Below the pieces are notes generated by a model. That model had not been told where the DNA came from. It was given only the letters and a program-made list of their open reading frames with translations, and made no database searches. A stretch of 64,000 bases of DNA from IMG/VR virus record IMGVR_UViG_3300038429_000587, positions 1 through 64,000 of that record. One strand, written 5' to 3'. Positions 3,402 to 56,234 of the stretch are shown here, piece after piece. Origin of the DNA: a virus. Numbering within the stretch: position 1 is the first letter of the stretch; every line of letters begins with the position of its first letter. A program made the position numbers and the translations under genes.

Positions 3402-3947
3402 ATGGCAAGGAAGACAGTAGACTTGGCCGAAAAGGATATCCAGGAGCTTGCGCCAGCCTATCCATGGACTCTTATTCGCTTCCTTGGCGAAGGGTCGGAG
3501 AAAAAAGAAAACGCCTGTTTCTTCACTGGATGGAAGGGCGACATTCAAGGAGTACAGCTCGCCTTGCTTTTGCCGCCTGCCACTATCGAATATTCCTTGT
3601 CGGATATTTCCTATGTAGCGCAGTGGATCTATTGGACGAGAAACGAACAGGGATATAGCATCGCACTCTACGTCAATCTTCCCGGCATGGAGTCGGGAGA
3701 GATCCTGGCCGGACAGACGTTGAATATCGGGAAGGAACGAATCCACGTAGGAGACTCGCAAACGAAGGTCGATCGCCTTGTTGCGCTTGGATACCGGAGG
3801 CTGCAAGAGTTGATTGCGGCCAGGACAAAGAAAACATCCGAGGCGCAATCGGCGCCCCCCCGAAGATCCTGTTCTGAAACAAGAAAGTGCGGCGGAACCG
3901 GAAAAACAAAAAGTCTACGATCCGGAAGAGCCGACAAAGTACGATAG
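3402..3947 (+). CDS. Hypothetical protein with a likely frameshifted C-terminus
   Basis: As annotated, 181 residues starting MARKTVDLAEKDIQELAP. The first 150 residues look like a normal globular protein. After a run of seven C at 3855-3861 the frame becomes an unnatural Arg/Cys/Gly-rich tail. In the +1 frame the same DNA encodes an acidic, proline-rich tail (PEDPVLKQES... ending DRPDYYF) that stops at 3966, just before the next gene. Either a base is miscounted in the C run or a +1 frameshift makes the longer product. Function is unknown. Confidence 0.6.
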   Translation: MARKTVDLAEKDIQELAPAYPWTLIRFLGEGSEKKENACFFTGWKGDIQGVQLALLLPPATIEYSLSDISYVAQWIYWTRNEQGYSIALYVNLPGMESGEILAGQTLNIGKERIHVGDSQTKVDRLVALGYRRLQELIAARTKKTSEAQSAPPRRSCSETRKCGGTGKTKSLRSGRADKVR

Positions 3948-3968
3948 ACCGGATTACTATTTTTAGCC

Positions 3969-4184
3969 ATGGCATTTCCAAAGACATCCGACGATTTGAA
4001 AGCAATGGGGTACGTCTTCATCGACGACGCCGAATGCAAGGGTTGCGGCGAAGCGATTGAATGGTATCGCACCCCGAAAGGTAAGAGCATCCCGATAAAT
4101 CCAATGGGCCGTGGGAGCGACAAGGCCATACCTCATTGGACGACCTGCACGGAAGCAGATTTTTTCCACAAGAAGAAGATCTAA
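3969..4184 (+). CDS. Small zinc-binding phage protein
   Basis: A 71-residue protein with CKGCGEAIEWYRTPKGK (about residues 23-39) and a later HWTTC. The CxxC pair plus His/Cys suggests one zinc site. Similar short proteins are common in phage accessory regions, with no known biochemical role. Its TAA overlaps the ATG of the next gene (TAATG). Confidence 0.6.
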   Translation: MAFPKTSDDLKAMGYVFIDDAECKGCGEAIEWYRTPKGKSIPINPMGRGSDKAIPHWTTCTEADFFHKKKI

Positions 4185-4348
4185 TGAAATACCGTAGAGT
4201 CGAGCAACGAGAAACGATGTGGAGGAAGCGCCGTTCGGGATGCAGCGTCTTCCTTAAAAAGCTTGCCAGTAGAGCGATGCGGAGAGCTGCAAAGCAAGAC
4301 CCGGAGAGTGCTCCTGTTAAGCCGAGATATCAAGGTTACGAACATTGA
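4184..4348 (+). CDS. Small basic hypothetical protein
   Basis: A 54-residue basic protein (MKYRRVEQRETMWRKRRS...), started by an ATG overlapping the previous stop. It is rich in Arg and Lys and ends RYQGYEH. No family is recognised. The tight coupling with its neighbours supports it being translated. Confidence 0.45.
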   Translation: MKYRRVEQRETMWRKRRSGCSVFLKKLASRAMRRAAKQDPESAPVKPRYQGYEH

Positions 4349-4359
4349 AAGGAAGAACA

Positions 4360-4560
4360 ATGCTACCGGAACTTAATCCTATTATGGCTCCCGATGCGTA
4401 CTGCTCCATGTGCGGGGAGAAGATGACGGTAACCCAGGAGAAGGGGCCAAATGGAAAGCTGCATCAGATTGTGTATACCTGCAGCAATGAAAAGACGGGT
4501 TGCAGTTACCAGATTCATCACGATCAACGACTTACCGGCATGGCGACAAGAGTGAAATAG
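4360..4560 (+). CDS. Small zinc-ribbon protein
   Basis: A 66-residue protein with CSMCGEKM near the start and YTCSNEKTGC later, giving two pairs of cysteines typical of a zinc ribbon. The ATG at 4360 follows AAAGGAAG. It may bind nucleic acid or a protein partner, but its role is unknown. Confidence 0.55.
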   Translation: MLPELNPIMAPDAYCSMCGEKMTVTQEKGPNGKLHQIVYTCSNEKTGCSYQIHHDQRLTGMATRVK

Positions 4561-4561
4561 A

Positions 4562-5074
4562 ATGTCGAACTTCGATCAACTCCTTGTGGGCGGGATCATG
4601 GGAGCTTGTATCCTGGCCTTGAGCTTTCTTATCTACTGGAGCGCCAAATGGATTGTGGCGACCAATAAACAATTGCAGTTGGTTGTTTCCGGGATGGATC
4701 GATTAGCGAATGTATTCGAAGGAGCTGCGCAGATATCGTCGTCGATGACGTCCATGGTCCAGGTGAACCGGCGACTGATAACGTCGACAGAGTCGATGGC
4801 GGCGGCGGTCAAGACATTCACGGCGCTGGTAGTGCAGGCGCCGACCGAACATCCGGAAACGGCCTTCGCTGTTCGCGGTGGGCCTCTACCGGCGCCGCCG
4901 AACTTCTACGAGGAAGACTATGCTAAGCCAGAAGATGCCGGACTGTTATCGCAAAGCGATAGCGACTTGGCAAAGCTGGACTTAGAGAATGAGTTGAGGG
5001 CGCAGGGGATCGAGACGTCGCCGGACAAGATCCCGCTTCCCGACCCCTCTCAGGTGAACTATGTAGAGAGCTGA
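4562..5074 (+). CDS. Single-pass membrane protein, lysis-region candidate
   Basis: A 170-residue protein with one strong N-terminal membrane segment (about residues 8-30, GGIMGACILALSFLIYW). An amphipathic, probably coiled helix (residues 35-90) and an acidic tail follow. Its position after an endolysin would fit a holin or spanin subunit, but no specific motif proves this. It starts one base after the preceding stop. Confidence 0.5.
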   Translation: MSNFDQLLVGGIMGACILALSFLIYWSAKWIVATNKQLQLVVSGMDRLANVFEGAAQISSSMTSMVQVNRRLITSTESMAAAVKTFTALVVQAPTEHPETAFAVRGGPLPAPPNFYEEDYAKPEDAGLLSQSDSDLAKLDLENELRAQGIETSPDKIPLPDPSQVNYVES

Positions 5075-5079
5075 TGGAG

Positions 5080-5165
5080 CGGCGGCTTCGCCGCCGCAGC
5101 TGGAGGGTAGCGACGCCTTCGGCGTCCGAGCAAGAAGCAGCGAGGGCTTCGCCCTCCTAGCTAAA
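5080..5165 (+). repeat. Dispersed hairpin repeat cluster 1
   Basis: Three short hairpins stand in tandem after the membrane-protein gene. Each has the form AGCGA-stem-loop-stem-CCnAGC, for example GAGGGCTTCGCCCTC and GACGCCTTCGGCGTC. The same element family occurs in at least seven other gaps of this window. The stems vary in sequence while pairing is preserved, which indicates selection for RNA or DNA structure. Function is unknown. Confidence 0.8.
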
Positions 5166-5171
5166 GACTTG

Positions 5172-5200
5172 TTGACAGCCGAGTTGGCTGGCTCCAGGAT
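5172..5200 (+). promoter_or_regulatory. Candidate promoter for the packaging operon leader
   Basis: TTGACA at 5172-5177 is followed after 17 bases by CAGGAT. The -35 is perfect and the -10 is weak. The spacing and -10 style match other candidates in the window (11143, 41355, 46365). A transcript would begin near 5207 and meet the terminator at 5262-5300. Confidence 0.5.
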
Positions 5201-5261
5201 AAATACGAACGAGCACCGAATCTAAACTGCGGTCGAAAGACGAAACCGCTCAGTGCAGATT

Positions 5262-5300
5262 GGCTCACGGAGAAATTCTCTCCGTGGGCCTTTTTCTTTT
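5262..5300 (+). terminator. Terminator or attenuator just upstream of terS
   Basis: A 12-bp stem (GGCTCACGGAGA with TCTCCGTGGGCC, one G-T pair) is followed by TTTTTCTTTT. It ends about 12 bases before the start of the small terminase gene and lies downstream of the 5172 promoter. This makes it a likely attenuator rather than an operon end. A closely related hairpin precedes the gene at 28021. Confidence 0.8.
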
Positions 5301-5311
5301 TGGACGGAAGA

Positions 5312-5917
5312 ATGCCACGAACCAAAGCCAGCCCGAAAACGTCGACGCTTGCGCAGACACAGGCGCGCCACTACATGCGCTATCTGCGCAAGGATATGGG
5401 CGAGAAGGTCGAAGAGATCGCTCAGTCGGAAGGCGTCAGCATAAAGGCTATCGAGAAATCCATCCGGCAGGTTTCGATGGAACGCGCTGTTCATACTCAG
5501 CAAAACCTGAGCACGGCCGTGATCTCGATGCTGATGGGAAACATGCGCGGCGTGGATCAGGCCTTTAAGAAAGGGCTAAAGGCGCAGAACTTCCTGGAGC
5601 GCAAGAATGCGGACGGAAGCAACCAGTTTGTTCCCGTAGACGATACGGAGACGCAGTTGAAAACGCTGCAGGTGTACGGCAAGTTTCTGGAGGCGATGCA
5701 GCCCAAAGGCAGCGGCATCAGCGTAAGCGTACAGCAGAATAACGCGAACCAAGCCAACCAGACGAATATGCGCAACGGCGGTTACGAAAGCATGCTGCGC
5801 TCCGTGCTCGATAAAGTACACGCCCATAACGAACTACCCAGAGAGACGGCAGACGTCATCGAAGCGGAAAAGGAAGACGACAGCAGCGACGAGGATGAAG
5901 GGATGGTGCAGGCGTAA
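5312..5917 (+). CDS. terS: Small terminase subunit (putative)
   Basis: A 201-residue protein. Residues about 15-60 contain a helix-turn-helix-like segment (EKVEEIAQSEGVSIKAIEKS), followed by a helical middle and an acidic tail (ADVIEAEKEDDSSDEDEG). Small terminases recognise the packaging site and hand DNA to the large subunit. The assignment rests on the DNA-binding motif and on its four-base overlap with the large terminase gene. The ATG at 5312 follows GGAAG; an upstream TTG at 5300 is less likely. Confidence 0.7.
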   Translation: MPRTKASPKTSTLAQTQARHYMRYLRKDMGEKVEEIAQSEGVSIKAIEKSIRQVSMERAVHTQQNLSTAVISMLMGNMRGVDQAFKKGLKAQNFLERKNADGSNQFVPVDDTETQLKTLQVYGKFLEAMQPKGSGISVSVQQNNANQANQTNMRNGGYESMLRSVLDKVHAHNELPRETADVIEAEKEDDSSDEDEGMVQA

Positions 5918-8052
5918 TGGACATTATCCGCGCCAATCCTCACTTGAACGAGTTCATCGAAATGATGGACGAGTATTACATTGCCGTGCAAGGCAACACG
6001 TATCTCGCCTGGGAAAAGCTGGGCACAACCGAGAAGGATTTTATCGCGGGAGAGATCCTGCACTGCGTCACCGATCCCCGCTATTACCTGGAAAACTACC
6101 ACATCATCCGAACCGAGCACCAAGGGTTGAAGACGCTTTCTCCTTTCTGGGATTCGCAGGAAATCTTCTATGAAGCCGTGATCGAACTGAAGACTGCCGG
6201 AGGGCAAGTCAAGATCATGATTTTGAAGGCCCGCCAGCTGGGCCTGTCGACGATCTGCGAAGGCATGGTCTTCTGGAAGACGCTCTTCACCCCAACGTGC
6301 AACACGCTGATCGTCGCTACGGACACGATGAAGGCCGACGACCAGTTCGAGATGTCCCGACTGGCGTACGACTGCTTGCCCTGGTGGATGCGCCCCGAAG
6401 TCCGCTACGACCAGAAGGGGCGCGTGCTGCAGTTCGACCGCAAGGACGACCTGATGCGCAAGATGAGTCCCGGCATGCGCTCGAACATCTTTGTCGAAGC
6501 AGCGAACAAAGATACCGGCGTCGCTCGCGGGAAGACGATCCGCTGCTGCCACATGAGCGAGCTGGCTACGTGGGATAACGGCGAAGCCCTGACGCAGCAG
6601 ATCTTCCCGACGATGAATGCTCCGGACGTGATGGCCTTCATGGAGTCCACGGCCGAAGGGCGCAGCGGCTTCTGGTATCGTTTCTGGCGCGACACGGTCG
6701 ACGGCAAGACGACCTGGCACCCTGTCTTCATTCCTTTCTATCGCGTGCGCAAGTATTCCTTGCCGATCAAGAAGGGCGAGACCTTCATCGCCACGGCAGA
6801 CGAAGAGGAGTACCGGAAGAAGATCCTGGAAGATTCCGCGTTCAACATCAGCGACGAAGTCTTGAATTGGCGCCGCATAAAAGCTGCGGAATTCGTATCG
6901 CTCGAAGGCGACGAATTCGGATTCATGCAGGAATATCCATCGAACTGGATGGAGGCCTTCCAAGGCTCCGGCGTGTGCGCCTTCAATCGGCGTCTCCTCT
7001 ATAAATTGCTGGCGACAACGTGCGTCGCGCCCCGGTTTGTCGGAGAAATCAATTACGACCGGGATGCGCGCAAAGAGCGAGTGGCGTTGCACCCAGTCAA
7101 CAAGGGAGAGATCCTCCACAATCCCAAGACAGAAGACCGCTTCTGGGTCTGGGAAAAGCCAGAGGAGGAGGCCACCTATTACGTATCTGGAGATGTTGCA
7201 CAAGGCGTCGAGGGCGGCGACTTCAGCTGCATCGAAGTGCTGAAGATCGGCGCAGGCATGGAGCCCGATGTTCAGGTAGCGGAGTGGCGCGGCTGGATCA
7301 ATCCGACGCCCTTCGCCTACATTGTTTGCGCCGTCGCCACTTACTACAACATGGCGCAGGTGGCGGTCGAATGCAACAACGTCGGCAAGGTCACGAATAA
7401 CGAGATCTTCCGGGTCATCGAGTACGACAACATCTATCGGTGGAAGCATCTCGACAAGGTCAAGAACTTCATGACCGATTTCATGGGGTGGGAGACGAAC
7501 TGGAAATCCCGCGACGCGATCATCGCCAAGATGAACGAGGCGCTGCTGGAGCGCTCCATCGTCCTGCGCAGCGAATTGCTGATCGACGAGATGATGGATT
7601 TCGCCTTCGACGAAAACGGAGAGGGCAAGGCGAAGGGCCGCGCTACAAAAGACGACCGCGTCATGGCCATGATGATCTGCCGTTACTGCGCGCATGAGTC
7701 CGACTATGGGAAGGCGGCGCTAGCCAGGCCGATGAACTCTTCCTCGGCTGGAAATTCCACATGGTACGTCCTCGATAAGTTCAACCGGAAGATCGGGGAA
7801 TACAAAGAGCGGGCCGTCGCCTACGCGGAATTCCAGAAGTATCCAGGCGGCTCGATTATGGCGGCGCCGCAGGCTACGGATCACTTCAACACGATCTACT
7901 CGCCGATCTACAACAGCAGCGGCATTCGTAGCCGTATGTATTACGACCTCGGCTATACGCCGGAATCGATCAATCACGAAACGGTAACGCTGGAGCAGAT
8001 AGCGGAGGAGCCTCCGGATATCAGCGATCCGAATGCATGGCTGCAATTTTAG
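5917..8052 (+). CDS. terL: Large terminase subunit (packaging ATPase-nuclease)
   Basis: A 711-residue motor that pumps DNA into the prohead and cuts it. The ATPase part has MILKARQLGLST as the Walker A-like motif (about residues 106-117) and VMAFMESTAEG as the Walker B region. The RNase H-like nuclease part shows YYVSGDVAQG with the first acidic residue, VAVECNNVGK with the second and KDDRVMAMMI with the third. All expected catalytic residues appear intact. The start codon overlaps the terS stop. Confidence 0.95.
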   Translation: MDIIRANPHLNEFIEMMDEYYIAVQGNTYLAWEKLGTTEKDFIAGEILHCVTDPRYYLENYHIIRTEHQGLKTLSPFWDSQEIFYEAVIELKTAGGQVKIMILKARQLGLSTICEGMVFWKTLFTPTCNTLIVATDTMKADDQFEMSRLAYDCLPWWMRPEVRYDQKGRVLQFDRKDDLMRKMSPGMRSNIFVEAANKDTGVARGKTIRCCHMSELATWDNGEALTQQIFPTMNAPDVMAFMESTAEGRSGFWYRFWRDTVDGKTTWHPVFIPFYRVRKYSLPIKKGETFIATADEEEYRKKILEDSAFNISDEVLNWRRIKAAEFVSLEGDEFGFMQEYPSNWMEAFQGSGVCAFNRRLLYKLLATTCVAPRFVGEINYDRDARKERVALHPVNKGEILHNPKTEDRFWVWEKPEEEATYYVSGDVAQGVEGGDFSCIEVLKIGAGMEPDVQVAEWRGWINPTPFAYIVCAVATYYNMAQVAVECNNVGKVTNNEIFRVIEYDNIYRWKHLDKVKNFMTDFMGWETNWKSRDAIIAKMNEALLERSIVLRSELLIDEMMDFAFDENGEGKAKGRATKDDRVMAMMICRYCAHESDYGKAALARPMNSSSAGNSTWYVLDKFNRKIGEYKERAVAYAEFQKYPGGSIMAAPQATDHFNTIYSPIYNSSGIRSRMYYDLGYTPESINHETVTLEQIAEEPPDISDPNAWLQF

Positions 8053-8997: not shown

Positions 8998-10826
8998 TGT
9001 CTTCAATACTCACAGAATCGGAGATCCATTCCTCTGCCGGAGCAGCGCAGGGAGGAACGACGACGCCTACCACGTCGGACTACTCTGCGCAGATCCGTCA
9101 ATTCTGCAACTCGGCCTACGAAGAAGCTAAGCGCAACAACGAAGATGCCGAGGAGATGAAACAGATGAACACGTATCTGGATTATCTCTCGGGCATGCAG
9201 TGGAAGGGACAGGTTCCGGCTCATCGCGCTAAGCCGGTGACGAACCGGATGCGCCGATTGTTCTGGGAGACGGTCGGGCTGCTGACGGATATCCGGCCGA
9301 TTTTCGAAGTGCATGCCATCGATAAGACAGAGATCTATTCCCGCACCCAGGACATATTGAATCGAATCACGCGGGCCTGGGCTCTGATGACGAACTTCGA
9401 CGTAAAGCTAAGCATGGTCACGATGTACGCCATGCTCAGCACGGGATACGCAAAGATCGAGTGGGACCCCTTTGCGGATAGCGGAAGAGGCGATATCGTG
9501 ATTCTCCCGGTATCGCCCTTGTCGCTGCTGCAGCTGGGCGCGGACAACGACATCCAAGAAGCAGAACTGGTGATCTATCGGCGAGTGGTCACGCTCGAAT
9601 TTCTGCGGCGCAAGTATCCTCTGACCGGCTATGCGGTGCAGCCGGATGCGAACTATTCCAAGTTCGAGATGAACTCCAGCGCCCCGGCGCACATATCGCC
9701 GCAACTCTTTATGAGCCTTTCTCCAGGGATGCGCAGAAAGATCGGGCAAGCAGCCGAACAAACATTCAGCGTCTTCCCCAAGGCGGAGTTAAGGGAATTC
9801 TGGCTGCGCGATTCCACGGTAAATAAATCCAACAAGCCGGTTCTGGTAGGGAAGAAAGACACCAACTGGTGTTACGAAGTTCAGCCGAATCAGCCGCTCT
9901 ATCCGCGAGGGCGGGTGATCGTCATGGCGAACAACGTGATCCTGGACGACCAGCCGAATCCTTATTGGCATGGGAGATATCCGTTCGCGATGTTGCGATT
10001 GCAGGCTGTGCCATGGCAATTCCATGGAGAGAGCGTCATCAAGCCATGGATGAGCATGCAGGACGTGATCAACCAGATCATCGGCGGCGTGCTGAACATG
10101 GTCAAGCTGGCGGTAAGCCCGCCGCTGCTGGCGCCGAAGAATGCTTTCAGTCCGGAGGCATGGAAGGGGCTGGACATGTCACGGCCGAACGAGAAGGCGC
10201 AATACAGCGCGAACTCTCCACATCGACCGGAGTTCCGGCCGCCGCCCAATGTCCCGGCCTACGTGCTGCAACTTAACTCGATTGTTTCTCAGGAAATGGA
10301 CATGTCGTCCGGCGCGTCGGCGGTCGCCGACGCAGCGCGGAAAAAACAGATTCCCAGTGGAGACTCGCTGGAGCAGCTGCAAAATGCGCGCAATACGCCG
10401 ATCCGCATGATGGGCCGAAGCATCGAGGGATTCATCGGCGATTTGGGAATGCTTTTCATTCCCTGCGTGCTACAGTTCTATACCGCAGAAAGAAGGGTTG
10501 AGCTGCTGGGAAGTCAGGGAATGACGCCCGCAGATTTCGACGCCAGTCCGGGAACCCTGGTTCCTGCCGGGATGGAACCCGAAGCCTATGCACGTAAGTT
10601 TAAATTCAAGATCGAACGCGGATCGCTCCTCAGCACGCAAAGGATGGAACGAGTTAACTATGCCATGAAGCTTTACATGGCAAAGGCGATGTCGCTACGG
10701 GAACTTTATCGCATCCTCGACATCAATGTGGATGTAGATCGCATGATACAAGAGATGCTAGAGGAAGCTAAACTGAGAGCTGTGGTTTCGCCAACACCAG
10801 CTAAAGGGCAGAAGAAGGCAGGATAA
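8997..10826 (+). CDS. Portal protein
   Basis: A 609-residue head-tail connector forming the DNA entry ring. Supporting features are the N-terminal helical region, NRMRRLFWETVGLLTDIRP (about residues 82-100), the long middle with WYGRYPF-like and MNMVKLAVSPP segments, and order terS-terL-portal-scaffold-capsid. The start is a GTG sharing bases with the preceding TAG. Length is typical of podovirus-like portals. Confidence 0.85.
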   Translation: MSSILTESEIHSSAGAAQGGTTTPTTSDYSAQIRQFCNSAYEEAKRNNEDAEEMKQMNTYLDYLSGMQWKGQVPAHRAKPVTNRMRRLFWETVGLLTDIRPIFEVHAIDKTEIYSRTQDILNRITRAWALMTNFDVKLSMVTMYAMLSTGYAKIEWDPFADSGRGDIVILPVSPLSLLQLGADNDIQEAELVIYRRVVTLEFLRRKYPLTGYAVQPDANYSKFEMNSSAPAHISPQLFMSLSPGMRRKIGQAAEQTFSVFPKAELREFWLRDSTVNKSNKPVLVGKKDTNWCYEVQPNQPLYPRGRVIVMANNVILDDQPNPYWHGRYPFAMLRLQAVPWQFHGESVIKPWMSMQDVINQIIGGVLNMVKLAVSPPLLAPKNAFSPEAWKGLDMSRPNEKAQYSANSPHRPEFRPPPNVPAYVLQLNSIVSQEMDMSSGASAVADAARKKQIPSGDSLEQLQNARNTPIRMMGRSIEGFIGDLGMLFIPCVLQFYTAERRVELLGSQGMTPADFDASPGTLVPAGMEPEAYARKFKFKIERGSLLSTQRMERVNYAMKLYMAKAMSLRELYRILDINVDVDRMIQEMLEEAKLRAVVSPTPAKGQKKAG

Positions 10827-39818: not shown

Positions 39819-40479
39819 GTTGCAGGCTAGCGAGAGATGATGGGTTTGCTGTAACCATCGTTGCTGTTCAAGAGATCGAAAGCGATGTGTTGCAGGCTAG
39901 CGAGAGATGATGGGTTTGCTGTAACCCAATGTGAGTCGAAAGCTTCGAAAGGAATCCGGCGTTGCAGGCTAGCGAGAGATGATGGGTTTGCTGTAACACG
40001 GCAGTGATGTGTTCGCTCTGTGTAGCATATAGGTTGCAGGCTAGCGAGAGATGATGGGTTTGCTGTAACGCGCTGTCCGAAGCCACTGGTCTGCTTCGTG
40101 GGTTGCAGGCTAGCGAGAGATGATGGGTTTGCTGTAACCACGGGCTGCCGCCGAGTTCTACCAGCTTGCCAATGGTTGCAGACTAGCGAGAGATGATGGG
40201 TTTGCTGTAACTTCGACAGCTGGGTCGGCTCGCTCAGCGTTCAGGGTTGCAGACTAGCGAGAGGCGATGGGTTTGTTGCGACCCTGCTCTGAAGTGAGTC
40301 TGAGTGCCCATCTGTCATGTTGCAGACTAGCGAGAGGCGATGGGTTTGTTGCGACCCTGCTCTGAAGTGAGTCTGAGTGCCCATCTGTCATGTTGCAGAC
40401 TAGCGAGAGACGATGGGTTTGTTGCAACACGGGTCTTCACGTGAGCCTGAGTGTCCGGAAGCGTTGCAGATTAGCGAGA
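39819..40479 (+). CRISPR. CRISPR array B, nine full repeats plus a broken one
   Basis: Nine 37-nt repeats start at 39819, 39889, 39961, 40033, 40102, 40175, 40246, 40319 and 40392, each beginning GTTGCAG(G/A)CTAGCGAGAG. A tenth at 40463 keeps only its first 17 bases. Spacers are 32-36 nt. The first five repeats share GGCTAG and ...CTGTAAC ends; later ones drift to GACTAG and ...TTGCAAC, the form used in array A. Spacers 7 and 8 are identical and spacer 9 is a diverged relative. Repeat 5' ends pair with the tracrRNA anti-repeat at 41495-41509. Confidence 0.97.
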
Positions 40480-40487
40480 TAATCCTC

Positions 40488-40516
40488 TTGACAATCATCC
40501 AGAAAAGAATCATTTT
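40488..40516 (+). promoter_or_regulatory. Possible promoter for the 40559 gene
   Basis: TTGACA at 40488-40493 with CATTTT 17 bases later. It begins just beyond the broken last repeat of array B. The -35 is perfect; the -10 is poor. Confidence 0.35.
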
Positions 40517-40740: not shown

Positions 40741-41246
40741 CTATGGCCCTGCCTTGTTCTCTCGCTAGCCTGCAACGAGATCGCGATAATCCGGTTCAAG
40801 AAATTCCCTGTAACCAGCCTGCTTTCTCGGTAGTCTGCAACTATCGGCCAGAGGTACCCTCCCGCTCGCTTCCTGTAGCCCATCTCGCTTTCTCGGTAGT
40901 CTGCAACAAATTGGCTCATATCTGACATACACGCGCCCCTGTAGCTCAGCCTGCCTTCTCGTTAGTCTGCAACTTGGAGATCGGGATTCCAAGTTCTTGA
41001 CATCCTGTAGCCCTGCTTTCTTGCTAGCCTGCAATACCGGCACGCCATCAAACTCCTGTAATCCTGCCTTCTCGGTAGTCTGCAACGGGAATGGTTTGCA
41101 TTTCTTAGCGCGTAGACTGCACCTTCTCGCTAGTCTGCAATTGAGTCTGGCCGCTAAACCTGTCTTTTTGCCAATCTGCAACCATCTGCCTCGTCGCCGT
41201 TAGCTTCGCGTCTGCAATCGAAGCAGTGCCCGAGCCAAGCTGCAAC
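40741..41246 (-). CRISPR. CRISPR array C (leftward), repeats shrinking from 36 to 7 nt
   Basis: In minus sense the repeats are of type B, beginning GTTGCAGACTACCGAGAAAG. Full 35-36 nt copies lie at 40741-40776, 40807-40841, 40872-40907 and 40938-40973, with exact 30-nt spacers. Then come 32-nt copies (41004-41035, 41055-41086), a roughly 31-nt copy (41111-41141) and finally bare 7-nt units at 41176, 41212 and 41240. Transcription would run leftward, so the most decayed units are the upstream ones. Confidence 0.9.
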
Positions 41247-41389: not shown

Positions 41390-41586
41390 CAGCTAGTCTG
41401 CAAACACGAACCGGGAGCACGGAAAGTGGATCTATCCGCGAGTCTCAGGGAAACACGAGATCTGAAAGCCAGTCTGCAAAAAGAGTAAAGCTATTCGCTA
41501 GTCGGCAACATGTATATTTTTATACGAACAGGCAATGCGCGTGCGCAACCTGAGAACGGCGTCCTTCGGGACGCCGTTCTGTTTGA
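41390..41586 (+). ncRNA. tracrRNA candidate A
   Basis: An RNA of about 195 nt is predicted from the promoter at 41355 to the terminator. The key part, TCGCTAGTCGGCAAC at 41495-41509, pairs with the first 15 bases of array A and B repeats with one A-G mismatch. Next come a GTATA/TATAC hairpin, a TGCGC/GCGCA hairpin and a 12-bp terminator stem with TTCG loop (41553-41580). Two further anti-repeat-like stretches (GCTAGTCTGCAAAC near 41392 and CAGTCTGCAAA near 41470) lie upstream. This is the expected tracrRNA architecture for type II systems. The 5' end is inferred. Confidence 0.8.
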
Positions 41587-42578: not shown

Positions 42579-43079
42579 GTTGCAGGCTATGATGATTGTC
42601 ATTTGGTGTTGCAGACAGCGAGAAAGTAAGCATGCGATACAGAATAGACTGACATCACGATATGCCAACAGAAATAGCAGGCTAGCGAGAGGAAGTAGGA
42701 CTACAGGAAATGCGCCATTTGTAGAGTTTGCAGGCTACCGAGAAGCCATGGCTACAGGACTCAGCAAGAATTGCAAGCATAAATTTGCGTTGCAGACTAT
42801 TGGGAAAGCAGGCAAGCCATAGGGCGTTGCACGGGAAATGAGGCGTTGCAAGATTAGCGAGAAAGCAGACTGGGCTACAGGTTCGTAACCTAATATAACT
42901 TTGCTTGCACAGTTGCAGACTACCGAGAAAGCAGGCAGGGCTACAGGTTCGTAACCTAATATAACTTTGCTTGCACAGTTGCAGACTACCGAGAAAGCAG
43001 GCAGGGCTACAGGTTTGTTCCTGTCGCATGAACATATCTAATCGTTGCAGACTACCGAGAAAGCAGGCAGGGCTACAGG
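42579..43079 (+). CRISPR. CRISPR array D (type-B repeats) next to the cas9 3' end
   Basis: Perfect 36-nt repeats beginning GTTGCAGACTACCGAGAAAG lie at 42912-42947, 42978-43013 and 43044-43079, with 30-nt spacers. A 37-nt variant is at 42845. The spacers 42882-42911 and 42948-42977 are identical. To the left the units decay (42579, 42608, about 42674, 42726, 42789 and 42826). The last repeat ends 23 bases from the cas9 stop, and the array points into cas9 antisense. Confidence 0.93.
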
Positions 43080-43102
43080 AGGAATCTTGTAGCCCATTGA
43101 TT

Positions 43103-46100
43103 TTATTGGTGAGTAGCGACCTTCCGAGGCTGGAAAAGATCGATCTTGCCACCATTTGGATGGAGTTCTCCAAGTAAATCCACCTTGACCGGCGCCATGC
43201 CCATCTTGCGCAGGGCATCGACTTTCGGGGACCACCCTTCATGGGCTTTGTCGAGTTCGACAGCAGACCGGGTTTCATTGAGCGGCATGACGGTGACTTG
43301 TCCATTTGCCGCGATGCCGCGAATGCGATAGATGCCTGGGATGCAGACATCGTTTTCGTGCTCGCAATCGCGGTGTAACAAGATTAAGTCGCCGATCATA
43401 AGAGCGCACACAAACAGATGCTTATATTTGGCCCCTTTGGGCAGGCGGCCGGAGACGCCGTTGAGCGAAGTCAACCGTTCGTCGATCACCGGCTGCTTTC
43501 GATTACAGCGGGTTTTTGCTTCCAGCAGGGAAACGGTGCGGCTGACATAGCGTGGACCATTGGCATCGTCGATTTCGAAGACCTCCATGTGGTGATTGCG
43601 ATCATTGGCGACGTAGCGCTCGAAGCCTTCTTTGCCTACCTTGGTGACGGTAAGAGCCTTCCGGATGCGGGCGCGCCGGATAGGGACGGCAGGCCTTTTC
43701 CCGACCTGGATCGTCGGCCAGTTATTCGCAGCGGCGCAGGTAGAGAGATCCTCTTCCAGCGCGAGGAAATGGCGCAACACGGCCTCCCGAACGGGCTTGG
43801 AGACGATAGCTTCGATATCGCGTTTGCTCATGGCCGTGACCGGCTTACGGACGGTGACCCAGGAGCGGCCCTGCTCGTCGATCACCGGCTTGGAGTAATG
43901 CGTCTCCTGGTGTAAGGCTCCGTTGAGCTTCTTCTCGACCCGGATGGAAGGGACGATGCTATCGACTTGGGAGCGGATCGAGTCAATAAAATCCGGCCAA
44001 GGGGATTCGATGGCATTCGAATCCTTGCTATAGCGAGTCATGCGATGAAAGATCTCGTCGTCCAGGCAGGCGATAGCGATGGGATCGAGCGTCTGGGCGC
44101 GCCAGTCGTCGGGGAGTTCCCGGTAAAGGTCACTCAGCGCCCACTTGCGGCGCACCAAGGCTGTCAATGCGGAAGGGCGCCCACAAACGGCACGCCGCGT
44201 TACGCCTTGAGGGAGAAGAACGTCGCGCCCACCATAGAGCGTGCCGACTAACTCCATGGCCCACTTGGTGGCGAAGCGATTGTCGTTCATGGCGCGTTGC
44301 GTGTAGATCTCCAAGTCTTCGCGGGAGCGGACTTCGAAGCGATGCAATTTCTCGATGGCGAGGTCGCCTTTGAAGAGATCGACGCGGCGGAGGATGTCGT
44401 CGAAGAGGTCTTCGTTTTTCCCGTAGGCCTCATAGGGCGTGAAGTTACGCTTGACCGAGGCTAATTCCGGCGCGTAGATGAGCGTCTTATTCGAGAAGGA
44501 ATTGTCGGGATGGCGGTTGAAGGGAAGGATATTGGTCACCATCCAGTCGTCGCCGCGAAAGAGAGCATCGAAGGGGATCTTGTGGCCGGTATAAGGGCAA
44601 AAGCCATCGCACTCGTCCCATAATTGGACTTTTTCGATATCCGATCCGCTGACATTTTGTTTGGCGATGCCGGTAGCTTCGCTGACGCGCTCGCGCAGCT
44701 TGTCGCGGCTAGCCTCTCTCTGCTTATTGCCGATATGGATATTCTGACGTTCTTTCCGGCTGCGCCGCAGTTCGTTACCGAGTTCTATATGGATGCGATA
44801 CGGCTTGCCATAGCGGCGAACCAGGGCGTTGACAATTTTGCGGGTCTGCGTAAGGGAGCGTTCGACGGCAGGATTCGCCAGAGCGCGGAAGACCTCGCGA
44901 ACGGGAGGGATTTCTTCGTGGATCGGCTTGAAATGTACTCCCTCGCCGTACTCTCGTTCGACGGCCGTAGTGTAGCCGATGCCTTCGTTGAGGTGAGGCA
45001 TTAAGCGGGCGATCGCCTTCTTCGACAGAGAACAATAGCCCGATTCCGGCAACTCGCTGGCCCAGAGTTTTCCCTGCTCTTCGGTTAACAGATAGTGGCG
45101 CATGCCAGCGGTGACGAGCTGTTTTTCGGTTTCGGCGGCATTCCAGATATTGATGGTTTCCGCCTGTTGTTCGGGAGTCATCTTGAGCCATGCATCGCCG
45201 AAGACCTTGTAATGGTGGGCATAAGTGCGATTTCCGAGGATCTGTTTTTCTCCGGCGCGCTGGAAATTGAACTCCGAGGATTTCGGGAAGCCGAAGTGCT
45301 TTTTGACGGCGGTATAGGTGAGCTGGGGATTGACCTCCAGCAGCCGATAGAGGGCCTCTTTCTCCTCTTTGGTCAAGGGAGAGCCTTCGGCTTGGCCGAT
45401 GGGGCAAATACGCAGATCGTTGATGCGTTGCCGCATACGGAAACGCTGAGCCTCCATGCTGCACATCGGAGCGCGGCGTTGCTTAGGCTCGAACTCGCAG
45501 AAGCCGACGAGATGCTTTGCAGAGGCCAGCGGACGCTGGAAGAAGAGCAGCCGGTGAATCTGGCTTTTCAGCTGCGGGGTTAGCAAGTCTGGGTAATACT
45601 TGTGCTGTTTGGTCCAGATCTGCTCGAATTCGTCGAGATACATCTGACGCGAGGTCCAGCGGCGGCGGATCTTCACCTTTTGGGGATCGATTTTGGAGAA
45701 GTATTCGCCTAAGGTGCGAGCTTTCAGCTTCTGCATCTCCTGGGCGAGTTCGGAGATCCCTTGCTTGACGGCTCCCTCTTGGCCTTCTTTCTCCGGTTTG
45801 CGCCGGTTGGACTGATATCCGCGACGCTGCACAAGGTGATAGAAGATCCGGCCCAGCTCGAAGAGCTTGAGGCGGCGATCCAAGGCATCGGCGCGCAGGA
45901 TATAGGGCAGCTTGTTGTGAGGATGGCGATCCGCCAGAGCCTTTTCTAGCTCGCGCTCCAAATTATTCAACGTGTCGAGACGCTGTTTGGGGCTGCCATT
46001 GGTGCTGGCAGGCAAAAGTCCCTGCATCTGCAGCAAGGCGAAGAGCTCGGTTTCCCGCTCCAAGCGGCGCTCGCGTATCCGTTGCGACTGTTTTACCTGA

Positions 46101-46306
46101 CGGTAGGCGACGGCGCGGGAGATATCCTTCCCTCGCTTGATTTCAAGCAAGGAACCCTCGACGCCGGGATCGAAGAGATGCACGCCGGGGTGCATCAAGG
46201 CGACAGGATTCTTATCGTCCTTGTCCGATAACTGGACAGCAGCCCACCCGATAGAGGACGCATTGATCTGTAACCCTAAAACGTAATCTTTATGTTTGGC
46301 GACCAT
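43103..46306 (-). CDS. cas9: Cas9-like protein, both nuclease sites predicted inactive
   Basis: An intact 1067-residue type II-C-sized Cas9. RuvC-I reads LGLQINASSIGWA, so the catalytic Asp is Gln13 and the next Gly is Asn15. An Arg-rich bridge helix follows at about 64-85. RuvC-II keeps Glu508 (IHIELGNEL). The HNH domain (about 560-625) keeps CPYTG and Asn606, but the Asp-His pair is Thr591-Asn592 (MVTNILPFN). RuvC-III reads RAQTLDPIAIAC: the His pair is Ala737-Gln738, with Asp741 kept. The protein should bind guide RNA and DNA but not cut. No cas1, cas2 or csn2 is present. The start is the first in-frame ATG; ribosome site is weak. Confidence 0.95.
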   Translation of the reverse strand: MVAKHKDYVLGLQINASSIGWAAVQLSDKDDKNPVALMHPGVHLFDPGVEGSLLEIKRGKDISRAVAYRQVKQSQRIRERRLERETELFALLQMQGLLPASTNGSPKQRLDTLNNLERELEKALADRHPHNKLPYILRADALDRRLKLFELGRIFYHLVQRRGYQSNRRKPEKEGQEGAVKQGISELAQEMQKLKARTLGEYFSKIDPQKVKIRRRWTSRQMYLDEFEQIWTKQHKYYPDLLTPQLKSQIHRLLFFQRPLASAKHLVGFCEFEPKQRRAPMCSMEAQRFRMRQRINDLRICPIGQAEGSPLTKEEKEALYRLLEVNPQLTYTAVKKHFGFPKSSEFNFQRAGEKQILGNRTYAHHYKVFGDAWLKMTPEQQAETINIWNAAETEKQLVTAGMRHYLLTEEQGKLWASELPESGYCSLSKKAIARLMPHLNEGIGYTTAVEREYGEGVHFKPIHEEIPPVREVFRALANPAVERSLTQTRKIVNALVRRYGKPYRIHIELGNELRRSRKERQNIHIGNKQREASRDKLRERVSEATGIAKQNVSGSDIEKVQLWDECDGFCPYTGHKIPFDALFRGDDWMVTNILPFNRHPDNSFSNKTLIYAPELASVKRNFTPYEAYGKNEDLFDDILRRVDLFKGDLAIEKLHRFEVRSREDLEIYTQRAMNDNRFATKWAMELVGTLYGGRDVLLPQGVTRRAVCGRPSALTALVRRKWALSDLYRELPDDWRAQTLDPIAIACLDDEIFHRMTRYSKDSNAIESPWPDFIDSIRSQVDSIVPSIRVEKKLNGALHQETHYSKPVIDEQGRSWVTVRKPVTAMSKRDIEAIVSKPVREAVLRHFLALEEDLSTCAAANNWPTIQVGKRPAVPIRRARIRKALTVTKVGKEGFERYVANDRNHHMEVFEIDDANGPRYVSRTVSLLEAKTRCNRKQPVIDERLTSLNGVSGRLPKGAKYKHLFVCALMIGDLILLHRDCEHENDVCIPGIYRIRGIAANGQVTVMPLNETRSAVELDKAHEGWSPKVDALRKMGMAPVKVDLLGELHPNGGKIDLFQPRKVATHQ

Positions 46307-46399: not shown

Positions 46400-46595
46400 C
46401 GTAGAGTTTTGGTCGACCCTGCAACCGGCCAGGATTGTACGTTGTAAGAATAAAGAAAGAGTTAGAAGCCAAAAACGGTCAACCTGCAACATGTGACGGA
46501 ATTTCCATTACCGGCAACATGTATATTTTTATACGAACAGGCAATGCGCGTGCGCAACCTGAGAACGGCGTCCTTCGGGACGCCGCTCTGTTTTT
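46400..46595 (+). ncRNA. tracrRNA candidate B (second copy)
   Basis: Bases 46512-46593 repeat 41503-41584 with one change (T to C in the terminator stem). The shared part has the GGCAAC end of the anti-repeat, the two small hairpins and the terminator stem; here the T run is better (GTTTTT). The longer anti-repeat is missing: upstream are ACCGGCAAC and earlier AACCTGCAAC (46481-46490) and CCCTGCAAC. These would pair only with the first 7-8 bases of a repeat, exactly what the minimal units keep. Copy B may therefore serve the minimal units. Confidence 0.65.
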
Positions 46596-48311: not shown

Positions 48312-49079
48312 ATGGCGAAACTTCACGAGTTACTTGCCGTCGAAAGCAACCTGAAGGGACAGGCGGAAAAGCTCCGCCAGGATCTGATGGGAACCTTCGA
48401 AAAGAAGCGGCACCTCTTCGAGGAAACGCGGAAGACATACACGGCAAAGGAAGAAAACAGCAAAACGGTTGTCGAAGAACAGAAAGAGATTCAGACTACG
48501 GTTGCGAACGAGATCGCGTGGATCTCGACACACATGGCGAAGGCCATCGACGCCGGTTACCACATCGACACAGCCAACACGCAGGCCTTTGCCGATGTGG
48601 TGATCGAAGACGAGGAAACGGCGATCCTGAAACAGGTCCCTGCAACGGCGCTCCTACAGCTGGAAAAGCGGCTGAAGGACGTTCAGGCGCTGATCCAGGC
48701 GATTCCTACTCTCGATCCGGCCAAGGGCTTTCAGCTGGACACGGAGCATGCTAAGAAGGGTGTTTACAAGGCTCGCGATGTGGTCAAACCGCGCACGAAG
48801 AAGGAGCCAAAGGTCATCACGCTAGCTCCGGCCACCGATAAATTCCAGGCGCAAACGCAATTGCTGAGCGTCGATGAACCGGTGGGCGAGATTCGCGAGC
48901 AGGAGTGGAGCGCCATGTTGACGCCTTCGACAAAAACGGAGCTGTTGGATCGTGTGGAGAAGACCATCCGCTCCGTCACTCGCGCCAGGGCGCGGGCCAA
49001 CGAGCAGGAAGTCGACGTGCATGGCAATAAGGTTGGCAAGAAGCTGCTGGATTACATCTTCCAGCCCCTGCAGTCCTAA
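48312..49079 (+). CDS. DUF7873-like conserved phage protein
   Basis: A 255-residue protein. MAKLHELLAVESNLKGQAEK at the start, KKRHLFEETRKT and PATALLQLEKRLKDVQALI in the middle match a common actinophage and podovirus family that I recall as DUF7873. It is helical, and the role is unknown. Start supported by GAAGGGA upstream. Confidence 0.65.
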   Translation: MAKLHELLAVESNLKGQAEKLRQDLMGTFEKKRHLFEETRKTYTAKEENSKTVVEEQKEIQTTVANEIAWISTHMAKAIDAGYHIDTANTQAFADVVIEDEETAILKQVPATALLQLEKRLKDVQALIQAIPTLDPAKGFQLDTEHAKKGVYKARDVVKPRTKKEPKVITLAPATDKFQAQTQLLSVDEPVGEIREQEWSAMLTPSTKTELLDRVEKTIRSVTRARARANEQEVDVHGNKVGKKLLDYIFQPLQS

Positions 49080-49087
49080 GGAGGCCT

Positions 49088-49363
49088 ATGAAAATAAGTG
49101 ACCGGGGCTTCGTCCGTTATGAACCGATTGAGGATGCCAATTTCGATTACGCTGACCATCAGATATCTCTGCAGCTGGTGGAGTCCTCTGCCGATCCATT
49201 GGACAAAATCCATGTTTACCTTAGGATTCCATGGAGACACTTGTCGGACACAATGACAAATTACGTAGGGAAAGACAAAGTCGCCATAGCGTGCGATCTC
49301 GATCAGGATTCGGCGAAGCTGCTCATTGAACAGCTTCAAGATTGGCTCAAAAAGTTTGGGTGA
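49088..49363 (+). CDS. Small hypothetical protein
   Basis: A 91-residue protein (MKISDRGFVRYEPIEDANFD...) right after the DUF7873-like gene, with an AAGGAGG site. No motif is recognised. Confidence 0.5.
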   Translation: MKISDRGFVRYEPIEDANFDYADHQISLQLVESSADPLDKIHVYLRIPWRHLSDTMTNYVGKDKVAIACDLDQDSAKLLIEQLQDWLKKFG

Positions 49364-49466
49364 CCCCGCGAGGGGGAATCCAGGTTTGTCGTTATCGTTA
49401 TCGTTGTGAAAAAGGTTAAGGCTATCACCCAATAGGTTTGTCGGGAGTTTGTGATATGCCGGAGCG

Positions 49467-49575
49467 GGGAACATTCCAAAACGCGGTCGCCGGTTCAAAT
49501 CCGGTCGAGGCCCCCATAAAAATTATGGCCTCGTAGCTTAGCGGTAGAGCAGCGTGATCAGGATCAAATGTTCTC
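49467..49575 (+). tRNA. Circularly permuted tRNA candidate
   Basis: The 3' half precedes the 5' half. The 3' half has AACGC (49480-49484), variable GGTC, T arm GCCGG-TTCAAAT-CCGGT (49489-49505), acceptor CGAGGCC (49506-49512), a C and an encoded CCA (49514-49516). After a 10-nt linker the 5' half has GGCCTCG (49527-49533, perfect complement of the acceptor), TA, D arm GCTT-AGCGGTA-GAGC and GCGTG (49552-49556), pairing 4 of 5 with AACGC. The outer ends (49467-49475 and 49567-49575) are also complementary over 9 bp. If the anticodon loop is ATTCCAA, the anticodon is UCC (Gly); this is uncertain. Confidence 0.65.
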
Positions 49576-49610
49576 GGGCGGTCGGCTAGGCACGTTAAGC
49601 TCCTAAACAA

Positions 49611-49683
49611 TTCGATCTAGCTCAGTTGGTAGAGCATCACACTTCTAATGTGAGGGTCGCCGGTTCGAATCCGGCTATCGAGC
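49611..49683 (+). tRNA. tRNA-Arg (UCU)
   Basis: Cloverleaf by eye: acceptor TTCGATC with TATCGAG (one mismatch, one G-T), D arm GCTCAGTTGGTAGAGC, anticodon stem TCACA/TGTGA with loop CTTCTAA, and T arm GCCGG-TTCGAAT-CCGGC. The anticodon TCT reads AGA. No CCA is encoded. It is 36 bases downstream of the permuted tRNA, and a terminator follows. Confidence 0.85.
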
Positions 49684-49688
49684 ATCTT

Positions 49689-49726
49689 GCCCCGTTCGCG
49701 TGGAAGCGGGCGGGGCTAAAATTTTT
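49689..49726 (+). terminator. Terminator after the tRNA genes
   Basis: GCCCCG and CGGGGC arms with an inner CCCG/CGGG pairing, then AAAATTTTT. It probably ends the tRNA transcript. Confidence 0.65.
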
Positions 49727-50495: not shown

Positions 50496-50614
50496 GTTGC
50501 AGGATACATGGAACTAGAGATGTTGCAGGCTTTGCCGCCGATGTTCGGTGTTGCAGGTTTTGTGCCAGTTGCAGGTGGATGTAGTCGAAGTCAGAGTTAA
50601 GTCAAGGTTGCAGG
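50496..50614 (+). CRISPR. Minimal-unit cluster G
   Basis: Five GTTGCAGG units at 50496, 50522, 50550, 50568 and 50607, with periods 26, 28, 18 and 39. The last unit is 12 bases before the ATG of the VWA gene. No full repeat is present. Confidence 0.5.
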
Positions 50615-50625
50615 TAGGAGAGGAT

Positions 50626-51255
50626 ATGAAGGATAACTTTACGAGAATAGCCTTAATCCTGGACCGATCCGGGTCGATGCAGGCGAGCCGCGAATCGGCG
50701 ATCCAAGGGATCAACGACTTTGTTCAGGGCCAGAAAAAGGTTCCCGGAGAAGCGGCGTTAAAGCTAGTGCAGTTCGATGATCAATACGAAGTCGTTTTCG
50801 ATAAAAACATTCAGGATATACCGGAATTCACCCAGGAAGATTTCAAGCCGAGAGGCAGAACAGCTCTCTACGATGCGCAGGGAAAAACAATCGTAGAACT
50901 TGGCGAAGAGCTTTCTAAACTCCCAGAAGAGCAACGTCCTTCCCATGTCATTGTGGTGACCATTACCGACGGGAAGGAGAATGCCAGCAGGAAATTCACT
51001 GCCGAGACGGTAAAGGCTCTAGTCACGCAGCAAAAAGAAATCTACAACTGGGATTTTGTCTATGTGGGAGCGAATCAGGATGCTATCGCCGTCGGCGATT
51101 CCATGGGCGTCACGATGGATTCTGCGTTGACTTACAATTCCCTCAACGCGCAAGCCTATGGACAGATGGTGAGTTCTGTTTCCTCCTATGTAGCCTCGCG
51201 GCGCATGGGCGTACGAGCTGCCTTCACCACCGAGGACCGGAAGAAGGCTCGCTGA
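50626..51255 (+). CDS. von Willebrand factor A-domain protein
   Basis: A 209-residue VWA protein. The metal-ion-dependent adhesion site is complete: LDRSGSM near residue 13 (DxSxS), Thr in RGRTALYDA and Asp in TITDGKENAS. Such domains mediate metal-dependent protein contacts. Similar single-domain proteins occur in several phages with unknown partners. The start follows GGAGAGG. An open frame extends upstream through cluster G, but is not needed. Confidence 0.8.
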   Translation: MKDNFTRIALILDRSGSMQASRESAIQGINDFVQGQKKVPGEAALKLVQFDDQYEVVFDKNIQDIPEFTQEDFKPRGRTALYDAQGKTIVELGEELSKLPEEQRPSHVIVVTITDGKENASRKFTAETVKALVTQQKEIYNWDFVYVGANQDAIAVGDSMGVTMDSALTYNSLNAQAYGQMVSSVSSYVASRRMGVRAAFTTEDRKKAR

Positions 51256-55234: not shown

Positions 55235-55981
55235 ATGCCAGAGGAAACGGATCAATATGGGCTGGTCACCGTTCTCAAGGGCCAGATAGAAGCTCCGGAT
55301 GGGGCATATGCGCGACAAAGGCAACAGCTGCGCGCTGAGTTCTTGCCGGTTGTCGTCTCAGCAAAACAATACGAAGTTACGAACCTTTTCACTTATCAAG
55401 AAGCTGTCGGAATGGGCAGCATGTTACAGGCGCTCTCTGGCAAGGTCACAGAGTTTTATAAGCCAGTAAAACAGGTCTTCGACGCCGCAAAGAAAATCGT
55501 GCTCGACAATGAGAAACTCGACGCCGGACTTGTTAACGCCGCCAAGAATCACCTTAGCGTTCAAGTCTCTATCTTCGAAGCGGAGCAGGAGCGCCAGAGG
55601 CAGGCAGCAGAAAAGATTGCACGAGAAGCGGTAGCGAAAGCGGAGCAGGAACGCCGTTTGGAACGCGCCATCGAACTGGACCAGGAGGGCTACAAAGAGG
55701 AAGCAGTCCGATTATTGGACAGCGAAGAGTTGGCGCCTCCAGTCATTGTGCAGGCTTCGATTCCAAAGAAATCCCCTGGCTCGGTCCATCGCAGGAAGTG
55801 GCATGCTCAGGTCAACGATCCCACGCTGCTAATCAAAGGGATTGCGGCCGGCAGCGTGCCCATCCAGGCGGTAAAGATCGATCAGGCTTGGCTCGACAAG
55901 CAAGCCACCCAATATCAGGGAGGCCTGAATTATCCAGGAGTGTCGACGTATGAAGAACAAACCCATCACTTCCGATCCTGA
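55235..55981 (+). CDS. Conserved phage protein with coiled coil
   Basis: A 248-residue protein. The central segment (about residues 100-165) is a long charged coiled coil (EAEQERQRQAAEKIAREAV). The C-terminus has NYPGVSTYEEQ, a conserved end in a phage family usually found near recombination genes. The role is unknown; inhibition of host nucleases has been suggested for similar coiled-coil proteins only by position. Confidence 0.6.
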   Translation: MPEETDQYGLVTVLKGQIEAPDGAYARQRQQLRAEFLPVVVSAKQYEVTNLFTYQEAVGMGSMLQALSGKVTEFYKPVKQVFDAAKKIVLDNEKLDAGLVNAAKNHLSVQVSIFEAEQERQRQAAEKIAREAVAKAEQERRLERAIELDQEGYKEEAVRLLDSEELAPPVIVQASIPKKSPGSVHRRKWHAQVNDPTLLIKGIAAGSVPIQAVKIDQAWLDKQATQYQGGLNYPGVSTYEEQTHHFRS

Positions 55982-56234
55982 GGCCATGAAAGAGCTTAAA
56001 GACAAGATCGACTTGATCGTCATAAAGCAGCTTCACCACTTGAGCTCCAATCAGCTGACTCCGGAAGCGGAGATCGTAAAAGACCTTGGCGCCGACTCTC
56101 TCGATTGCGAATTTGTCCTCTTCGAATTGGAAGACGAGTTCGAAATCGAAACAGACGAGGCCGATTTCGAAAAGCTGCGAACGCTGGGGCAGGTGTATCA
56201 GTATGTCGCGGAAAAACTTGAGGAGAGCAAATGA
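55950..56234 (+). CDS. Acyl carrier protein
   Basis: A 94-residue protein. LTPEAEIVKDLGADSLDCEF contains the DSL motif whose Ser takes the 4'-phosphopantetheine arm; LVIKQL-like helix 1 and the EIETDEADFEKLRTLGQVYQYV end also fit AcpP. ACPs carry acyl chains in fatty acid synthesis. In a phage it may redirect lipid supply or serve another thioester reaction. No partner synthase is present in the window. Confidence 0.85.
   Translation: MKNKPITSDPEAMKELKDKIDLIVIKQLHHLSSNQLTPEAEIVKDLGADSLDCEFVLFELEDEFEIETDEADFEKLRTLGQVYQYVAEKLEESK

Follow-up and report, generated by a model that had tools for sequence, protein, structure and literature searches.

The tRNA-like element that follows a DUF7873 gene in a stretch of phage DNA (the window, 64,000 nucleotides, from IMG/VR record IMGVR_UViG_3300038429_000587) belongs, in our judgment almost certainly, to a conserved structured RNA that is linked to DUF7873. 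The RNA has a common and covarying fold, a fixed place after the DUF7873 gene in most loci, a frequently encoded CCA and a downstream cassette. The module in the window is one member of an RNA class that is found across hundreds of phages and soil bacteria and that is apparently undescribed; a literature search that was largely without subscription journals found no description of DUF7873 or of phage permuted tRNAs, and a published one is possible. We favor as reasonably probable the fuller reading that the tRNA-mimic RNA and DUF7873 form a two-gene module, with processing, binding and a tether or decoy role included.

The linkage suggests a specific RNA partner for DUF7873, a protein family of unknown function, and tRNA mimicry by permuted modules extends well beyond the Ro60-linked Y RNAs. 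Since the module is present in cultured phages (Gordonia Phendrix, Rhodococcus NiceHouse and Arthrobacter Mimi) and in Streptomyces, its processing, binding and function are open to laboratory testing.

The element in the window and its surroundings

The features of the locus, all on the plus strand, are as follows.

48312-49079, plus strand: DUF7873 (PF25283) gene, 255 amino acids; Pfam E value 5.8e-67, 226 bits (cut-off 27)
49088-49363, plus strand: ORF of 91 amino acids between the DUF7873 gene and the RNA, without a family match
49420-49446, plus strand: leader motif GGCTATCACCCAATAGGTTTGTCGG, conserved, aligned by eye only
49447-49589, plus strand: whole module; match to covariance model R1 at 106 bits, the window being one of the 22 training sequences
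49458-49477, plus strand: outer stem, 5' strand (GCCGG, GC, GGGAACAU, UCC); MFE fold, leader/trailer duplex of -26.7 kcal/mol
49480-49484, plus strand: anticodon-like stem, 3' strand AACGC, which covaries over 22 loci
49489-49505, plus strand: T arm, GCCGG-TTCAAAT-CCGGT; from sequence and covariation
49506-49512, plus strand: acceptor 3' strand, CGAGGCC
49513-49516, plus strand: C73 and encoded CCA
49517-49526, plus strand: linker TAAAAATTAT, 10 nt, A+T-rich, with T at position -1
49527-49533, plus strand: acceptor 5' strand, GGCCTCG, with 7 of 7 Watson-Crick pairs to the acceptor 3' strand
49536-49550, plus strand: D arm; from sequence and covariation
49552-49556, plus strand: anticodon-like stem, 5' strand GCGTG; from covariation and within-locus pairing
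49561-49586, plus strand: outer stem, 3' strand (GGA, AUGUUCUC, GC, UCGGC); MFE fold and duplex computation
49611-49683, plus strand: tRNA-Arg(TCT), without encoded CCA; ARAGORN and Rfam
49689-49716, plus strand: intrinsic terminator-like hairpin with a T-rich tail, the presumed 3' end of the transcript

A first-pass annotation had read positions 49467-49575 as a circularly permuted tRNA gene. The order that it gave (T arm, acceptor 3' strand, CCA, 10-nt linker, acceptor 5' strand, D arm) is as described, and we reproduced all of its pairing counts: 7/7 in the acceptor, 4/5 in the anticodon-like stem GCGTG/AACGC, and 9/9, with one G-T among them, between the outer ends GGGAACATT and AATGTTCTC. 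The MFE fold of the window recovers all of these helices and extends outward with GCCGG/UCGGC. Its energy is ordinary when compared with shuffles of this GC-rich sequence (z -0.61), and the case for the fold therefore rests on comparison between loci. Outside the window, the leader motif reads YTWTYRCYC-NAAGSYT, with CTCAGACTCTCGCTCCAG as the actinobacterial form in a by-eye alignment.

In the window locus, ARAGORN, and Rfam at its gathering score, reported only the tRNA-Arg at 49611-49683 and not the permuted element; the permuted order explains why a standard tRNA finder such as ARAGORN misses it. An assembly artefact is unlikely, since a second contig (IMGVR_UViG_3300018057_000010, 79 kb) is 99.98% identical to the window over 12.7 kb and carries an identical element. 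It was also observed that in the window (49525-49536) and many relatives the linker end AT, G1 and U8-A9-G10 often read ATG NNN NNN TAG. This three-codon mini-ORF is possibly a mere by-product of T(-1) and the tRNA consensus.

Several other features of the phage were recorded. The minus strand of the window encodes a Cas9 at 43103-46306 (PADLOC E value 4e-77; Pfam Cas9_a and HNH_4), near which lies a CRISPR array with some ten repeats of 37 nt at 69-73 nt spacing (39819-40500). Further degenerate CRISPR repeats occur in both orientations at 40741-41086 and 42786-43080, and two 99% identical copies of an 82-nt sequence whose end is a terminator-like hairpin (41503-41584 and 46512-46593) flank the Cas9 region. 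A terminase-based host scan of genome contigs gave no match. Other ORFs encode a von Willebrand A-domain protein of 235 amino acids at 50548-51255 (phrog_7371, unknown function), 1 kb downstream of the module, a Macro-domain protein at 1092-1556, and a small phosphopantetheine-site (acyl carrier-like) protein at 55950-56234.

Relatives, covariation and the DUF7873 gene

An initial scan of IMG/VR with the purine/pyrimidine pattern of the acceptor returned 16 contigs. Of these, 13 had the permuted anatomy with 7/7 acceptor pairs; the others were the near-identical second contig of this phage and two contigs with ordinary tandem tRNAs. A looser pattern added further permuted loci. When acceptor pairs were counted at the T-arm-to-D-arm junctions of all fetched loci, the main peak was at 3/7, as expected from neighboring ordinary tRNAs, and 66 junctions formed a separate class at 7/7. 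Shuffled sequence gave no 7/7 junction in 3.9 Mb.

Acceptor pairing was part of the search pattern, which placed no demand on either the anticodon-like stem or the outer stem. The anticodon-like stem had 4.15 of 5 pairs within loci versus 2.70 between loci (maximum of 2000 permutations, 3.33), and the leader/trailer duplex averaged -21.6 kcal/mol within loci versus -13.2 kcal/mol between them (lowest of 300 permutations, -15.4). In 22 aligned diverged modules, the covariation score was 0.83, versus 0.23 for shuffled and at most 0.17 for slid alignments, and all four anticodon-stem pairs had changes on both sides. The outer-stem pairs of the second module also covaried in 23 two-module RNAs. 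Model R1 detected modules at 37 to 71 bits in named phages and actinobacteria that were outside its training set.

DUF7873 was the same-strand gene just upstream in 27 loci that had originally been found through the RNA/DNA pattern. Among the loci examined, the intervening 91-amino-acid ORF (49088-49363) was present in the window phage only. In the converse test, we started from the DUF7873 protein, took 80 loci from bacterial genomes and 80 from viruses, and sought modules in the 700 nt that follow the gene. For such locus searches alignment A1 proved too diverse, and A3 (wide) and A5 (the subtype of the window) were used instead. With A3, at least one module was found downstream in 75 of the 80 genome loci and 66 of the 76 scorable viral loci, together 141/156; the controls gave 0/160 upstream, 0/160 on the antisense strand, 1/160 far downstream and 0/160 in shuffled sequence. 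With A5, 37 of 41 loci had one module and none had two, and the upstream and antisense controls were again 0 (0/201 each when the two locus sets were pooled). Two tandem modules about 149 nt apart were present in 43 genome and 29 viral loci of the A3 sets.

The module lies on the same strand at a median distance of about 100-165 nt after the DUF7873 stop codon. It follows DUF7873 in Gordonia, Arthrobacter, Rhodococcus and Rhizobium phages and in Streptomyces and Nonomuraea replicons, and it is present in Klebsiella jumbo phages and in Vibrio phages, the latter weak by the model (36.7 bits) but with 7/7 pairing. No module was found in 15 of the 160 DUF7873 loci, nor in Pseudanabaena phage PA-SR01 and Microcoleus phage My-WqHQDG. 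The link between DUF7873 and the module is thus strong, though not absolute. The family comprises at least 491 genome loci and at least 263 viral loci, and its bacterial range includes Streptomyces, Nocardia, Lentzea, Kutzneria, Chloroflexi, Deinococcales and Armatimonadetes.

For the DUF7873 protein, the AF2 model is confident (pLDDT 88, pTM 0.75) and consists of long helices and a two-strand ribbon; R161 and K164 are conserved, and the protein of the window is not strongly basic (pI 6.6). A sequence search of solved structures found no DUF7873 homologue, and Foldseek found nothing significant in the PDB. In BFVD, Foldseek gave a weak match to a crAss-like phage protein (TM 0.43/0.58). VIA-align 2 gave only middling Z scores, and these at large rmsd (for TolC, Z 8.2 at 14.7 A); its weak PUR-alpha row (Z 4.1) was set aside. 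These structure and sequence comparisons recognized no RNA-binding fold in DUF7873, and it is the gene association that suggests RNA binding by the protein.

Module ends and the downstream cassette

Among 37 unselected modules of the window type, CCA was encoded in 35, N73 was C in 25, and T occupied position -1 in 28. In wider sets the encoded CCA varied by group from 7/43 to 18/30, well over the chance expectation of 1 in 64. Since the tRNA-Arg of the window is without an encoded CCA, the CCA of the module is not just a habit of this phage. The encoded CCA and T(-1) would fit cutting of the linker by RNase P. In actinobacterial modules T at -1 is only weakly favored, and RNase P cutting is therefore least secure there.

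At a fixed offset 3' of the module, many loci carry either a complete tRNA or one to two lone anticodon stem-loops with the loop C-U-NNN-A/G-A. Complete tRNAs occupy this place in the window, L025, L044, L100, L101, L130 and others; that of the window, tRNA-Arg(TCT), has U1-G72 and a C7/U66 mismatch. Lone anticodon hairpins were found in 7 loci versus 0.34 hairpins expected, and in 8 loci versus 0.43 in a second set that shares some contigs with the former. Such stem-loops were seen about 66-110 nt after the module in L008, L015, L017, L065, L105, L126, L313, L319, L326, L329 and L343, with the anticodons UGA, GAU, ACU, GAA, UCA, GCU, UUA, CAU and UAU. In one pair of loci (L029 5340-5560 and L044 9307-9530), the RNAs are near-identical save that one of them has a complete tRNA-Ser(GCT) precisely inserted between module and terminator, which amounts to tRNA gain or loss caught in place. 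The transcript of the window probably ends at the hairpin at 49689-49716.

Known RNAs and competing explanations

The sole informative Rfam match of the element was YrlA (RF02553), whose full model matched window positions 49464-49580 at 34.7 bits. The two RNAs share a stem, an internal loop and a further stem, then a tRNA-like part that runs from T arm through acceptor to D arm; in YrlA this permuted order stands without joining. The internal loop AUCGANC/CUUAAACG of the element also loosely recalls Y RNA stems. It could thus be proposed that the element is a Y RNA proper, with an outer stem that binds a host-supplied Ro60/Rsr and DUF7873 as a neighbor with another role, and a contig from the same pattern scan, L032, does carry such an RNA beside a Ro60 gene. 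We consider this unlikely. Every YrlA match, including those of the relatives at 24 to 45 bits, is under the gathering score of 69; Ro60/TROVE (PF05731) is absent from the window phage, from the near-identical 79-kb contig and from 34 of 37 contigs tested, records that are possibly incomplete; and the constant neighbor, also on many bacterial chromosomes, is DUF7873 instead. YrlA RNAs are described in PMC7790460 (citing Chen et al. 2014) as Y RNAs with a tRNA-like domain that are encoded with Ro60, and a decoy role has been suggested for them (PMC7790460). The RNA studied here differs in having DUF7873 rather than Ro60 as its partner, in its often encoded CCA, in its frequent tandem modules, and in the fixed downstream position of a whole tRNA or of lone anticodon hairpins. 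The window RNA is built like a Y RNA but, because of the YrlA score, the lack of TROVE and the DUF7873 partner, is not filed as one.

A circularly permuted tRNA gene, with its ends cut and joined at the anticodon loop to give tRNA-Gly(UCC) or similar in the window, would account for the 7/7 acceptor and the encoded CCA, and in the window only, ATTCCAA is plausible as an anticodon loop. Algal permuted tRNA genes have the junction at 37/38 and an intervening sequence of 1-74 bp (PMC3978253). Algal and archaeal cases share with the module the gene order, a junction in the anticodon loop region and a short linker (10 nt in the window), and some archaeal ones encode CCA (PMC3978253). They do not share its long outer stems, its constant protein partner or its bacterial setting. 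A decoding tRNA would need a conserved U33 and one anticodon, but only 13 of 25 loci had U33, and the triplets that joining would give were unrelated between loci, with no anticodon conserved; joining is thus unsupported. The common C73 also argues against it, since of the canonical tRNAs of bacteria tRNA-His alone typically has C73. Two such bodies stand in tandem at many loci, and no consistent BHB shape was apparent at the junction: in the MFE fold of the window it forms a helix of 3 bp between an internal loop and a bulge of 4 nt, and other loci have larger and differing loops. BHB splicing enzymes are not known from bacteria, and the subset of larger ORFs of the phage that was scanned showed no recognizable splicing endonuclease or RNA ligase. 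The first-pass reading is therefore retained for the order, the single fold and the paired outer ends, which covary over 22 loci, but not for the joining of the halves, and a tRNA made in this way seems to us very improbable. Also quite improbable is a cis-acting 3' element of the DUF7873 mRNA, in which tRNA-processing enzymes would cut the mimic and thereby control how stable or abundant the message is. The constant same-strand place right after the DUF7873 stop codon, with a terminator behind, and the tRNA-like ends with T(-1), which suit RNase P, would agree with such an element; yet it would have no need for long covarying outer stems, for tandem modules about 149 nt apart or for lone anticodon hairpins. 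Phage tRNA clusters are common near these loci (0.49 tRNAs per kb) and tandem tRNA junctions share the order of elements, which could suggest that recombination left the element behind as a remnant of two tRNA genes, either tandem or duplicated. The 7/7 peak, however, stands apart from the tandem-tRNA background, and conservation beside DUF7873 extends over phages and chromosomes of several phyla. The first-pass annotation had named remnants of two degraded tRNAs as the case that would overturn it; covariation and the fixed place after DUF7873 exclude that case, and we regard the chance of a remnant as negligible.

We thus return to the two-gene module of DUF7873 and a tRNA-mimic RNA. One transcript would run through to the terminator at 49689-49716, and RNase P would cut the linker at T(-1)/G1, leaving a two-piece, tRNA-shaped body with a CCA end. 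No joining would take place at the anticodon. DUF7873 would bind the RNA, and by analogy with YrlA the complex may act as a tether or decoy by offering the tRNA-binding factors of host or phage the elbow and acceptor end of a tRNA. More tentatively, and with a little less than even confidence, we propose that DUF7873 and its RNA represent a new, Ro60-independent RNP system across phages of several host phyla and across actinobacterial and other chromosomes. In it, one or two CCA-ended two-piece mimics, together with separate anticodon stem-loops or whole tRNAs, might decoy or tether enzymes that act on tRNA.

Other RNAs with a related layout were also considered. The two-piece (permuted) tmRNA (RF04321) resembles the module in that its acceptor 3' piece is encoded ahead of the 5' piece with a short linker, but the module has a complete D arm and no recognized tag-coding domain; the only tmRNA match was an 18-nt fragment at 4.7 bits, and this identity was rejected. 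The paired leader and trailer brought a natural permuted group I intron into consideration. It was set aside, as a cmscan of L025 gave no group I match and the flanks seem too short.

TROVE is known to occur in jumbo phages (PMC7824862). In L032, a 68-kb contig, a permuted tRNA-like RNA is followed just downstream by a phage Ro60 gene (TROVE and vWA_Ro60; region 3748-5930), and this RNA is a candidate true phage Y RNA. Its layout is similar to that of the DUF7873 modules in that a protein gene adjoins a permuted tRNA-like RNA, but it differs in having no adjoining DUF7873, whereas nearly all DUF7873 contigs tested are without TROVE. A 10-kb viral contig with a DUF7873 module (L114) also carries a permuted tmRNA (RF04321, 61.5 bits) as a separate gene at 10042-10270.
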